Assembly: GCA_963921795.1 (NCBI GenBank)
Contig: OY997641.1
Coordinates: 75,356,279-75,420,278 of the forward strand
Source: Nannobrachium achirus
Lineage: Eukaryota; Chordata; Actinopteri; Myctophiformes; Myctophidae
Reading direction: 5' to 3'
Length of the DNA: 64,000 bases
In this document: positions 1,187 through 58,570 of the stretch, in pieces
Layout: each line of letters opens with the position of its first letter
Position numbering within the stretch: the first letter of the stretch is position 1
The notes under the pieces: generated by a model
Seen by the model: the letters and a program-made list of their open reading frames with translations, nothing else
Told to the model about the DNA's origin: nothing
The model's database searches: none
Made by a program: the position numbers and the translations under genes

Positions 1187-1579
1187 AGGGGTCCGGGACC
1201 CCTAGGGGGTCCTCAGAGTTACTACAGGGGTCCTCCAAATCTTCCAATCCTTTTACTGTAGCCAAAAAATAGCAGATCTACAAGCTCACAACGCCTCGCG
1301 CTGCAAGGCGTTGTGAGCTTGTAGATTGGCTATAGGATTGGTTTAGAGGGGAAAAAGAGCAGGCTAAGTACAGAGTGAAAGGTCAAGTTTATTAGGTATT
1401 GACGGCTCAAGTGGTTAAATATCTGAAAACACAAATTGACATGAATCCAAAATACACTGGTGATTGTGCTGTCAAACGATGAAACCATATGGAATCTATG
1501 AACAGGTTGTGGGGGTCCCTGCTTCATCTCTCTCTCTCAACTAAGTGGTCCTTGGCCTGAAAACGTTGAAGACCCCTGG
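1187..1579. mobile_element. hAT-like MITE, family A, copy 1
   Basis: Right end GAAGACCCCTG and a left part with GGGACCCCTAGGGGGTCCTC match the complete copies at 44596-45000 and 48724-49194. The extreme left terminus is missing, so this copy was truncated against the SRP72 3' end. A hairpin module sits in its left half. Confidence 0.75.
1267..1333. repeat. Hairpin module inside family A copy 1
   Basis: Left arm AATAGCAGATCTACAAGCTC and matching right arm GAGCTTGTAGATTGGCTAT enclose a GC-rich tip (CGCCTCGCGCTGCAAGGCG). The arms pair over about 28 bp with two mismatches in the right arm. Confidence 0.9.
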
Positions 1580-1976
1580 GGTAGGATCAATCTGAGCCAG
1601 AGTCATGCATTGATAGAGTGACAGTCCAATAGACTTGTGTTGTTAATAATAATAATAATGATGAATTGCATTTTTATAGCGCTTTTCTAAGCAAGTTGCG
1701 AACTCAAAGCGCTTACAGTGGTTCATTCATTCATACATTGGGAGGTGAAGCGGCGAACAGTCAACGCCAGCGTCCTCACTTCCCACATTCACACAGAAGA
1801 AATAAATCACACCCAGTGTGAAAGGAGCAGTGCTTTTTACGAGTTAAATCAAAACGAGTTAACAAATAATGTATTATCTTACAATACTTGGTTTGGATTT
1901 AGAATGTGTTTTGATGTGCTCAAAGAACAAGCATAGCGTTGGTGTCGGGCAGAAATCCTTGTAGCTCCGCATTTAA

Positions 1977-2291
1977 AGGAGTAGTTCACCCCCAAAATAA
2001 CTTTTTTCCTATTGATTACTCATGCCATGGAGACTTGAGTTCAATAATATTTTTTGTGTGTTGTCGCATTCCTAAGACAATAATTTGATTACAATGAATT
2101 TACCCCCATTGATTTCCGGATGGGGAACCGAATGCATTTGGGTCCCCATCTGGAATCAATGGGGCTAAATTTACTATAATCATAGTTTTGTCTTAGGAAT
2201 GCGACAAATACCAAAAAATATTATTGAACTCAAGTCTCCATGGTATGAGTAATCAATAGAAGAAAAGTCATTTTGGGGGTGAACTACTCCT
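1977..2291. mobile_element. Long-foldback MITE with TTAA target duplication
   Basis: Perfect terminal inverted repeat AGGAGTAGTTCACCCCCAAAA at 1977 and its complement ending at 2291, flanked by TTAA on both sides (1973-1976, 2292-2295). The two halves stay complementary over most of the length, including CATGGAGACTTGAGTTCAAT. TTAA duplication is the hallmark of piggyBac-type transposition. Confidence 0.88.
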
Positions 2292-2463
2292 TTAAGCTTT
2301 GTAATGTTTTTGAGCGGTGCCAATTGCTCCTACATCTGGCTTTGTCTGTATGCATCCCTCACTTGGCTAATGCATTTAACTGCTCCTTTCACACTGGGTG
2401 TGATTTATTTTCATAAATGAATGCCCTACTTCACATTACAAGAGTGTCACACAGAAAAGTTGC

Positions 2464-2504
2464 AAAAATAGAAGATCTACTGACCTTGTAGATCTGCTAC
2501 TTTT
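2464..2504. repeat. Short hairpin module
   Basis: A reduced copy: AAAAATAGAAGATCTAC, a 7-base loop, then GTAGATCTGCTACTTTT. It lacks the GCTCACAACGC inner stem. Confidence 0.75.
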
Positions 2505-2748
2505 GAATCATGTGGAGGTTAATGCTTGCCATCTCTGCATGTGTATATGCCACCCATGTCCAGAATCTGATCAACTTCAAACTCATTATGCTTATCTATC
2601 GCCCAGGGAGTGTGAAGTAGGGCATTCACGAATAGTGATTTTTTTAGTATTCAAATTTTTCGACCTCAATTAAGTATTCGAATAGTCGAATATTCGACAG
2701 GACTGGCCAAACTGTCAAATATTAATTAAGCAAGAGGCGAACATTGTG

Positions 2749-2776
2749 AAAATAGCCGATCTACATGCTCACAACG
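2749..2776. repeat. Half hairpin module (left arm only)
   Basis: AAAATAGCCGATCTACATGC followed by TCACAACG is present without a right arm; downstream sequence is unrelated. Confidence 0.7.
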
Positions 2777-3156
2777 TGGGCCAATGTGACCCTGGGTGTG
2801 CTTTGTGCAAAGATGTAGACCAAGCTCTGGCCAATGTGATCCTGGGTGTACAATAAAACAATCAAGTTGTTGAAGCTTAGCTCCTTCCAGAAGTATAGCT
2901 AAAAGAAAATAACAAAAAATTACAGATAAAGTGCAAAGTATAAAACAGGGCATAAATGGTCAATATAGGCTGTAAGCAAACCAGCCATATTGGGGGGAAA
3001 TGGGCTGCTTCCTTACTTCCTTCACAGATTTCACCAATGATACTAATTCTGTTCCATTCAGGTCAAACAGGTGTCAGGGTGGTTGCGACCGCAGGGAGCA
3101 GTTAAGTGTGAAAACCTGCAGCAATTGTGTCACACTGTAACTCTTGCCTGTAACGG

Positions 3157-3298
3157 CACACACACACACAGACAGACAGACAGAGACACACACACACACA
3201 CGCACGCACGCACACCCGCACACACACACACACACACACACACACACACACACACACACACACACACACACACACACACACACACACACACACACAGA
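3157..3298. repeat. (CA)n microsatellite with (GACA)n start
   Basis: About 140 bp of CA repeats with interspersed GACA, GCAC and CCGC variants at the 5' side and a pure run of about 70 bp at the 3' side. Confidence 0.97.
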
Positions 3299-56443: not shown

Positions 56444-56920
56444 AGAGGACCAATGCGTCACATGATGGATTGATGGATGGGAGCCCCGGTCACATGACCA
56501 ACATGAGGAAGGGTGGCGGAGGCTTGCTTCGTTGGAAACCACGGCAACTAGCGCCTTGCCGCGCCCCCCCCGCCCCCCACCACCCCTCTCTCTCTCTCTC
56601 TCTCTCCGCCTGGCTTAAAAAAACACTTCTGTGAAAAAGAAAAACCTGTTTTTAAGCAAATTATTAAAAACCAAGATCAAGTCCACACGAGTCGGCTTTC
56701 TCATATTGAGAGCTCAGCTATGCCATTTTTGGGTTAGCCCCCTCCTTCCTCTCCCCCCATGTACCTATTCCAGTCTACTCATGATTATAAAAAAGATTTC
56801 CTTTCCCTTTTTTCTTTTCATGCTTTCATCGATGAATATGACAGATGGCAGATGTTCTATATAATCCCTGCTGACCGCTAGAGGCGATGATGTATCCACT
56901 TTTCTGGGGCCAGCAGCATT

Positions 56921-56985
56921 TGGCGAAAATAGCCGATCTACAAGCTCGGAAGCGTTCTCAGCTTGTAGATCGGCTATTTTCGGCG
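56921..56985. repeat. Hairpin module in the gspt1 3' UTR
   Basis: GGCGAAAATAGCCGATCTAC and GTAGATCGGCTATTTTCGGCG with inner AAGCTCGGAAGCGTTCTCAGCTT. GGCGA stands on both sides as a possible short direct repeat. No host MITE is recognisable around it. Confidence 0.92.
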
Positions 56986-57406
56986 AAGATATTTAGTATA
57001 GACAAAAATGATCAGGGGACCTATTATTGACCCCTGGGGGACTCAAGTATATAGGGTTTAAGTCACTGAATGTCTGTTTTCTATTCAGTGCCTAAGACTC
57101 CGCCTCTAGTGGTCATTGGGAATGTGTAGAACCGCACTTATGTTGGTAACTTTCGTTATCTCTCATATCTCTACAGATGTGGACCAGCAGAGTTTGCTAA
57201 ATATAAGTAAACTGCAAAAATAAGTACGTTTGAAGCAGTTTGACCAGATGAAACCAAAATGTTAACCTGGTTTTACTTCCATTGCTTTGACCACCCTTTT
57301 ATTTTTTTATTTTATTTTTGTTTTTATTTTTTTTGGTTTCTCATTAATGGCGTTCTGGCTGTGTGCCTGGGCGTGTTCACATGTTATTAAAGCAAACTAC
57401 TATGAC

Positions 57407-57412
57407 AATAAA
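57407..57412 (+). terminator. Polyadenylation signal AATAAA (gspt1)
   Basis: Canonical hexamer about 960 bp after the stop codon, followed by GT-rich sequence. Confidence 0.6.
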
Positions 57413-57430
57413 ATATGGAATTGGGGAACG

Positions 57431-58141
57431 GTGAAGCGTGTTCATTTGTTGAACTCCAGGAGGATTTTAAAACTACTTGAATCTCTATTTTGGTCATGTC
57501 ATTTTGGCAGATTGGTATTCGTATGCTTTCCACAAGAAGCCATCGGAAGCTGAATTTTAAGTCCGGGCTTAAACCATAATTCTACTTTGTTACCAACCTA
57601 CTGACTTTGTAGAGGTTTGAGTTGTGTAGTTAAATATTGGTGTGATATTTTCAAAACCTGCTCCTTTATTCAAAGTTGATAGACCAATAAGTCTCCTCAT
57701 TGACTTAGATTGCACAGGGGGAAAAAAACTATTTTAGTACCCACAAATAAGTTAATGTATAACTTTACAAAACCCAATGAAATCAACAGAGCAGCTTTTG
57801 GAAGTTGTCTAATCGGTTACAATGTGACAAGATAAAACTACAGTATCTCACATAAGTGACCCCTTCCATTTCTGCTAATATTTAATTATATCTCTTCATG
57901 GGACAACATTGAAGAAATGACACTTTGATACAATGTAAAGTAGTCAGTGTACAGCTTGGATAACTAATTGTATTGTCACCTCAAAATAACTGGGGTACAC
58001 CCCAAACTGAAAATGTCCAAGTTGGGCCCTGTTAGCCATTTTCCCTCCCCAGTGTCATGTGACTTGTTGGTGTTACAAGGTCTCAGGTGTGAATGGTGTG
58101 CAGGTGTGTTAAATGTGGTATTATCGCTCTCACATTGGTCT
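57431..58141. other. Intergenic, nothing recognised
   Basis: AT-rich sequence without clear elements or exons. Confidence 0.5.
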
Positions 58142-58324
58142 GGAAGTTCAACATGGCACCTCATCAGGGACGTGCTGGGCCCCTGATTCAGCCCGGGAAA
58201 CAGAGTTGGAGAGGCCCTCATTGCGCGCTATAGAGAGATCTCTCTCCATAGTGCTGCTGCTACTCAAAGATTTGCCATTTCAGATCATGTCAAGTGACAA
58301 GCCAATGTACATTAGTTATATTTC

Positions 58325-58570
58325 GTCATTGTCGGGTGTCCAAAACCGTTTGTTTTGTATTTATCATTCAAAAAATGTATTAAACTAGTGAAAACAGCCG
58401 CTCTACAAGCACACAATGCCTCGCGGTGCGAGGCGTTGTGTGCTTGTAGATCTGCTGTTGTCACTACTTTTGTGCGACGGCCTTGTATGATGAAGCAGGG
58501 CTTTGCTTTGCGAAAAAATGTACACATTTGAAACTTGGAGATATGAGGTTTCTGCCCGACAGTGACGATT
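58325..58570. mobile_element. MITE family C, copy 3, nested
   Basis: TCGTCATTGTCGGG and CCCGACAGTGACGA ends as in copy 2, with GCGACGGCCTTGTATGATGA inside. Confidence 0.83.
58385..58467. repeat. Hairpin module, family C variant
   Basis: CTAGTGAAAACAGCCGCTCT, inner AAGCACACAATGCCTCGCGG with TGCGAGGCGTTGTGTGCTT, then AGATCTGCTGTTGTCACTA. Confidence 0.92.

Follow-up and report, generated by a model that had tools for sequence, protein, structure and literature searches.

Introduction

The CMITE group of Acropora corals consists of several families of TTAA-flanked miniature elements whose interior is, in the excerpts of the account considered here, more conserved than the terminal repeats (PMC2872659). 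According to the same excerpts, these elements are about 100 bp long, are present in about 1,600 copies, and have ends reading CC[C/T]T, and a nested insertion has made a new composite element (PMC2872659). A conserved internal domain that occurs across element types is also described for the V highly conserved domain, which the excerpted text links to a burst of the MER6 DNA transposon (PMC6887750). Here we analyze a short hairpin with a conserved arm that recurs throughout a stretch of 64,000 nucleotides (hereafter "the window") from the myctophid fish Nannobrachium achirus (assembly GCA_963921795.1, contig OY997641.1, positions 75,356,279 to 75,420,278, forward strand). In this fish the hairpin core is common to TTAA-type, hAT-type, and unclassified families of elements. 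On balance, we lean toward regarding the hairpin as the conserved palindromic center of non-autonomous, TTAA-ended miniature transposons that form a large superfamily, one that is old and has been renewed repeatedly.

Results and Discussion

Abundance of the Hairpin in the Window and the Genome

With at most three mismatches, the hairpin arm AAATAGCAGATCTACAAGC matches the window 64 times, compared with a mean of 0.01 and a maximum of 1 in shuffled sequence, and the exact arm occurs there 19 times. The sequence TCACAACGC is found 41 times with at most one mismatch, where 11.5 matches are expected. A genome-wide search, a step that the initial annotation of the window had proposed, recovered 163,724 exact copies of the 19-base arm (81,781 forward and 81,943 reverse) in the 1,658,514,493 bases and 564 contigs of the host genome, in which the window lies on the contig labelled C4; the reversed arm, used as a control, has no exact match in the whole genome. 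The density of exact arms in the window is about three times the genome average (19 versus 6.3 expected per 64 kb). A chance origin of the arm repeats is ruled out by the window counts relative to the shuffles and by the exact count for the genome. A sample of twenty 10-kb pieces, taken at a fixed coordinate from each of the contigs C1–C20 (200 kb including 11,950 N; GC content 42.8%), contains 117 arms with at most four mismatches. Their presence in this sample shows that the repeat is genome-wide, and extrapolating from so small a sample would put the genome-wide number of arms in the region of a million. The first annotation's view of a palindromic element that varies at its tip is borne out, and the element recurs across the genome.

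Of 33 two-armed copies listed in the initial annotation, 23 have both outer arms within five mismatches of the 19-base arm. The other 10 (19104, 19284, 24358, 33151, 39236, 43207, 44749, 46475, 47763, and 55028) fall outside this cut on at least one arm: eight combine one good arm (zero to two mismatches) with a decayed, shortened, or interrupted partner, and at 19104 (mismatches 6 and 5) and 33151 (mismatches 7 and 6) neither arm is well preserved. At three sites the tip has been lost and a short palindrome is left (L026:8055-8074, L011:4259-4294, and window 55028-55057), as expected from hairpin-tip deletion. Three near-identical hairpin copies that share their long flanks lie within 8 kb of each other (L001, L002, and L003 at C1:26761, 32522, and 34608) and represent a local duplication. 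A divergent arm, AAATAGTACACCTCCAAGCTCACAACGCG, makes a related hairpin at L037 (from about 3390) and at L039 (about 545–625). L034 has a flank in common with these two loci, but it ends abruptly at that point, and the copy at L010:7387 seems intermediate.

TTAA-Bounded Units around the Hairpin

The suggestion that the hairpin of 33–83 bp is itself a minimal mobile element is not supported in that form: the traceable copies are interiors of larger miniature transposons, either TTAA-ended units of about 130–210 bp or other elements of about 260–500 bp. The TTAA ends read TTAACCACTTnAnCC or TTAACCCATT and usually lie 35–60 bp from the core, with a maximum of about 95 bp in one half of the element family designated D. 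The left half of family D has its TTAA end 65–95 bp from the arm, and in other families and in single copies an end of the type TTAACCACTT or TTAACCCATT is mostly 34–62 bp away. One complete TTAA-bounded unit of 206 bp occupies 48829–49034 of the window, with TTAACCACTT ends at 48829 (+) and 49034 (−) and the hairpin at 48871–48939. It is nested in a family D element of the hAT type, whose enclosing CAGGGGTCTTCAA end lies near 49194. The interior unit of family D begins with TTAACCACTTGAACC, ends with GGTTCAAGTGGTTAA, and holds the hairpin; a further family D element at 1255–1578 (−) contains a hairpin (1267–1335), a TTAACCACTT end at 1418 (−), and the hAT-type end CAGGGGTCTTCAAC at 1578.

The association of end and arm is frequent and strongly oriented. 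Genome-wide, TTAACCACTT is followed after 25–55 bases by AAATAGCNGATCTACAAGC, an exact arm, in 10,496 matches, compared with 24 if the end is reversed (several of these hold a correctly oriented TTAACC further in) and none if the whole pattern is read backwards. A two-ended pattern with TTAACCACTT at both ends, in which TTAA formed part of the search, has 860 matches, some of them counted on both strands of one site. The frequency of such units would suit the explanation that all copies belong to one ordinary and already listed family of miniature inverted-repeat transposable elements (MITEs) with the hairpin as its interior, the outcome that the initial annotation had named as incompatible with its own view. 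We consider this very improbable, as there are six families of larger elements (A–F) with different ends, two of which, C and E, have 8-bp duplications.

Twenty-nine TTAA ends from the window, the 20 pieces, and five complete units that were read (L045–L049) were grouped by the ungapped identity of their outside sequence, which gave 23 classes; this comparison splits some family D surroundings, and we therefore count about 20 different surroundings. Identity between class representatives is 0.27 outside the ends and 0.50 inside them, the latter including the selected bases, and 0.36 at positions 11–24. The surroundings of L046–L049 differ, and L045 is a nearly perfect palindrome of 149 bp from TTAA to TTAA. 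The combination of TTAA at both ends with flanks that differ between copies is found for the TTAA class only and not for all hairpin copies. On this evidence the TTAA class can be assigned to TTAA-type MITEs and no further.

To compare half-units, local alignment scores were expressed as z relative to mononucleotide shuffles, a measure to which the TTAACCACTT end itself contributes. Three half-units are alike (z 6.2 to 8.4): a single-arm one at 8973–9029 (−; TTAACCACTGTAGCCC, 38 bp to the arm), one with a truncated arm at 27529–27590 (−; TTAACCACTTCAGCC, 43 bp to the arm), and L023:8547. The right and left halves of D, the left half of A, and M, a single-arm half-unit at 36005–36082 (−; TTAACCACTTGAACCCC, 59 bp to the arm), are partly alike: M reaches z 5.8 with D-right and 5.7 with A-left, and D-left reaches 4.2–5.0. 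In addition, C-left aligns with D-left (z 4.8), E-right with D (3.5–3.8), and H-left with A-left (3.3).

Families of Larger Elements and hAT-Type Features

The first sample of 136 arm or pair entries (67 pairs and 69 single arms) yielded 80 one-sided flank clusters, 22 with at least two members and 58 consisting of a single flank; the largest have 27, 21, 13, 10, and 8 members. The earlier impression of a hairpin module in differing surroundings is supported, and families with different ends carry it. From whole elements that were read, the family ends are CAGGGGTCTTCAAC for D, CAGTGGTTCTCAACC for F, TAGGGATGGGACGAT for C, TAGGGCTGTCACAATT for E, and ATATCGTCACTGTCGGGCAGAAACC for B, and family A has a CAGTGGTGCTCAAAC end in its right part. 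Further families, labelled H and J, were seen in a few loci. The ends of A, D, and F are hAT-like and mutually alike in their first bases, and C and E have TAGGG in common. The ends of family B differ from those of A, C, D, E, and F and are not hAT-like, and no superfamily was assigned to it.

Target duplications are found in several of these families. The family C element at 53473–53853 (+) has the ends TAGGGAAGGGACGAT and TAGGGATGGGATGAT, a near-central hairpin (53681–53736), and a perfect 8-bp duplication, TCCACAAT; a second copy at 12605–12908 (+) contains a perfect hairpin at 12765–12828. In family E, the element at 36780–37143 (+), with TAGGGCTGT ends and a hairpin at 36882–36940, is flanked by an 8-bp duplication matching at 7/8 positions (TACTTGTC/CACTTGTC), and another copy lies at 18030–18390 (+; hairpin 18153–18221). 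By reading, a family D copy in L018 has the perfect 8-bp duplication CCTTACAT on both sides; the two D copies of the window show no matching duplication with the ends chosen, and one family F copy (L026) has, by eye, a duplication of 6/8. Such ends combined with 8-bp duplications characterize hAT elements. In their 8-bp target duplications and short terminal inverted repeats, families C and E and one D copy resemble hAT-type MITEs. To our knowledge, hAT elements do not in general share a hairpin core.

Three family B elements are present in the window. The one at 14374–14634 (+) has ends near ATATCGTCACTGTCGGGCAGAAACC and a hairpin (14483–14551) with symmetric AAACAGC and ACACAACGC, and the other two lie at 20848–21084 (−; hairpin 20922–20990) and 58337–58569 (−; hairpin 58392–58460). 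A family F element at 55406–55680 (+) has the hAT-like end CAGTGGTTCTCAACC and a hairpin at 55536–55592 with a symmetric ACATGC variant. Mean pairwise identity over the hairpin plus 90 bp on each side, calculated for hand-chosen copies, is 0.887 for B (n = 7), 0.848 for E (n = 3), 0.813 for C (n = 4), 0.806 for D (n = 6), and 0.777 for F (n = 7). Because these values differ, the families are probably not all of one age.

The Core Edge and a Possible Independent Module

The outer limit of the conserved core was examined with the seed GATCTACAAGC alone (at most one mismatch), which has 171 hits in the window and the 20 pieces. The search itself biases the positions within the seed. Outside it, the eight bases AAAATAGC are free of this bias, and they are conserved at 82, 84, 91, 82, 70, 87, 88, and 89%. 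The single base between AAAATAGC and the seed is variable (A in 57%, then C). Conservation drops to 46% at the base just beyond AAAATAGC and is 30–57% over the next 14 bases. The same edge is seen with one vote per flank cluster, and on the inner side the core fades gradually (TCACA 75–82%, then lower). By this seed test, which covers the core and the bases around it, the interior is better conserved between families than the rest.

So sharp an edge, adjoined by the many one-sided flank clusters and their single flanks, could also mean that the hairpin passes from transposon to transposon as an independent module, either by inserting itself or through break-induced template switching at its own palindrome, and that the TTAA families are just one of its hosts. 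Families B, F, H, and J, which have no clear TTAA half-unit, would agree with such a module, as would L045, which resembles a fold-back rearrangement of family A. We searched in vain for a bare hairpin in clean flanks with a target duplication or an empty site. A flank-joining search of the sample gave, among the matches listed, only filled sites and one half-element (window 38830–38955). An exchange of halves at the hairpin is at most weakly supported. The 120 halves of the 60 pairs selected for the symmetry analysis below comprise 59 half-types, of which 16 recur; only half-type H2 has two repeated partner types (H9 and H15), and the other half-types with a repeated partner keep one each. 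The independent module is, in our judgment, a rather unlikely explanation. A narrower form, in which a module without transposase ends of its own would spread between non-autonomous families by break repair and fold-back template switching, appears still less likely. If it were true, miniature elements of the TTAA type, of the hAT type, and of unclassified types would have come to share the module as their center across much of a vertebrate genome.

Symmetry of the Arms and the Collar

Immediately outside the core lies a collar of 8 bp that differs between families and matches between the two arms. Its symmetry was assessed for 60 pairs in 23 families after pairs near a locus edge had been dropped and L002, L003, L006, L033, L035, and L036 had been left out as near-duplicates or not needed; three of these families remain variants of family A and two belong to family C, so that somewhat fewer than 23 are independent. 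The 8 bp outside the 19-base arm are identical in both arms in 105/184 cases, compared with 66.3 if the partners are dealt anew (0/5000 permutations). Neither the next 12 bp outward (82/276 versus 76.8; 1345/5000) nor the sequence further out (70/230 versus 65.6; 1390/5000) shows symmetry. The arm itself is symmetric at 383/437 versus 371.7 in shuffles (3/5000), and the inner five bases at 87/115 versus 80.0 (62/5000). An earlier clustering with lumped families pointed in the same direction (67 versus 43.9; 0/2000), and another lumped clustering into 12 groups gave a mean extension of 2.3 versus 1.3, with shuffles reaching up to 2.75. Changes diagnostic of a family are present in both arms, such as AAACAGC and ACACAACGC in B and ACATGC in F. 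The collar is inverted and not directly repeated; therefore it is not a target duplication, which rules out a bare hairpin with a target duplication of its own and also speaks against the independent module.

The maintained symmetry of collar and arm might alternatively reflect a structured RNA or small-RNA precursor that aids the elements or their host and thereby holds the core constant. This would be surprising, since in 9 of the 23 families the two arms retain the same mismatch (CAGATC opposite CCGATC) and shortened tips are frequent. Nowhere in the window does a match attain the gathering score of an Rfam family, and a known structural RNA was discarded as a candidate on those grounds. 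Of all the explanations weighed here, we give the RNA the least credence. The data would fit an asymmetric common ancestor and occasional copying from arm to arm before each family expanded. Fold-back template switching at the hairpin would be the simplest cause of the kept palindrome.

Mobilization and Origin of the Units

If the hairpin is the center of a TTAA-ended superfamily, its history may have been as follows. A TTAA-type transposase acting in trans would cut the units and paste them into TTAA sites, some of which lie inside other miniature elements, with the hAT-type family D as the clear case. The host elements might then amplify the hairpin with their own transposase, and this amplification would place one core in several families with different ends. 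Subsequently, the outer halves would diverge, while the core and the adjacent 8-bp collar could remain palindromic through copying of one arm from the other during replication or repair.

A search of the genome for the piggyBac transposase domain gave 116 scored matches among 952 candidates, most of them with open frames. Twelve of these loci, each about 4 kb long, were fetched, and five of them (L033, L034, L037, L038, and L039) have hairpins or arms close to the transposase. The view that the hairpin regularly belongs to an autonomous piggyBac element was rejected, since the assignable ones are parts of other miniature elements: L038:3109 belongs to family D and those in L034, L037, and L039 to family J, with L038:987 left without assignment. 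Sixteen of the 116 matches lie at C2:71346413-71843994, within half a megabase and on one strand, most of them open; this arrangement suggests a gene cluster more than dispersed transposons.

Several observations weigh against a TTAA-ended superfamily as the source of all copies. Most arms are without a recognizable TTAA end: at a score of at least 10, an end is in the expected place for 18 of 181 sampled arms, compared with 3 and 4 in the control places, which means that only roughly a tenth of the arms have a recognizable end. The search pattern that yielded the five complete units required TTAA at both ends. One of these units, L045, has family A sequence on either side and is no independent insertion; because of these flanks, it probably arose by rearrangement and not by clean insertion. 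The ends begin with CCAC or CCCA and not with CC[C/T]T, the piggyBac hallmark in PMC2872659, which is why the elements are not classed as piggyBac. Among the 12 fetched piggyBac loci there is none with TTAACCACTT-like ends at both sides, so that no donor emerged and a supply of transposase in trans is possible only. A search for the empty site of one family D insertion (at most two mismatches in 27 bases) had no match. Some pairs of TTAA half-units are unalike (z 1.3 for D-right and 8973, about 2 for D-right and A-left), and both halves of B as well as F, E-left, H-right, and J score below 3 with the TTAA half-units. Given these low scores, a single ancestry of every family is inferred rather than observed, and B, C, E, F, H, and J may derive from the same TTAA unit. 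Finally, the core edge seems sharper than would be expected from the decay of a common ancestor alone.

Other Features of the Window

Family A is represented by two composites. The first (8324–8933, +) has hairpins at 8387–8455 and 8816–8884 and a TTAACCCATT end at 8325, and the second (11240–11827, +) has hairpins at 11304–11350 and 11710–11778 and TTAACCCATT ends at 11243 (+) and 11823 (−). Further family A copies at 54688–55097 comprise a TTAACCCATT end at 54688 with a hairpin at 54733–54780, and a TTAACCACTT end at 55097 (−) with a remnant at about 55028–55057. Additional family A hairpins lie at 46876–46944 and 24103–24171, and those at 13761–13815 and 19582–19636 have shortened tips. The family H hairpin at 56927–56979, with a TTTGGCGA/CTTCGCCGA collar, marks a further element without a recognizable TTAA end. 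In the hairpin at 24360–24641 the arms are parted by other DNA, their starts being 263 bp apart. This DNA, probably a later insertion, begins with CAGGGCCG from both sides and is hAT-like.

Besides the hairpin elements, exon-like frames resembling a vertebrate GSPT1 (eRF3) were recognized by eye at 26774–27127 and 39519–39821 (+). The first 102 residues of the former have 102 protein matches at E ≤ 0.001, of the fish eRF3 type and for the most part unnamed sequences; recognized organism names are those of the ray-finned fishes Sphaeramia, Haplochromis, Notolabrus, Xenoophorus, Neogobius, and Neolamprologus, and one match is filed under a bacterium. Long frames at 59118–63022 (+) resemble, by eye, a gypsy-type retrotransposon polyprotein. 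The top self-matching stretches of the window are 3148–3298, 8070–8159, 9795–9919, and 25904–25976, the first two reading as TG/CA repeats in translation.

Comparison with Known Systems

Literature searches found no description of this hairpin among the papers listed, and six arm words of 12–14 bases turned up in literature text only in 12 papers on unrelated subjects, with a single word in each; the coral and V-domain precedents emerged from the same searches. Bacterial repetitive extragenic palindromic (REP) units and yeast mitochondrial GC clusters are short, dense palindromes with variable tips, as is the hairpin described here. Those repeats have no TTAA-bounded larger unit and belong to different genomes, and the traceable copies of the hairpin are surrounded by the ends of larger elements and are not stand-alone palindromes; the likeness is a resemblance only. 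Angel fold-back elements of zebrafish are likewise abundant short palindromic elements in a fish, a likeness of general form.

The hairpin elements account for a striking part of one fish genome. As a natural experiment, they could show whether transposition or recombination is raised by internal palindromes, and how new families of transposons come to be assembled. In the usual miniature families the ends are common with the transposase source and the interiors differ, whereas here the interior is fixed and the ends change. The V domain is similar in being a conserved interior carried by a DNA transposon; it differs in being derived from a short interspersed element and, in the excerpts considered, is not called a hairpin (PMC6887750). 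By description, the closest known system is CMITE, which has TTAA units, a conserved interior, and a nested composite in common with the elements of N. achirus. As far as the excerpted account allows the comparison, the fish elements differ from it in that the conserved part is a hairpin, the ends read CCAC or CCCA, the copy number is much greater, the host is a fish, and the core is carried by hAT-type elements as well (PMC2872659). Thus, a fixed interior like that of the coral CMITEs here extends across element types and reaches a far higher copy number.

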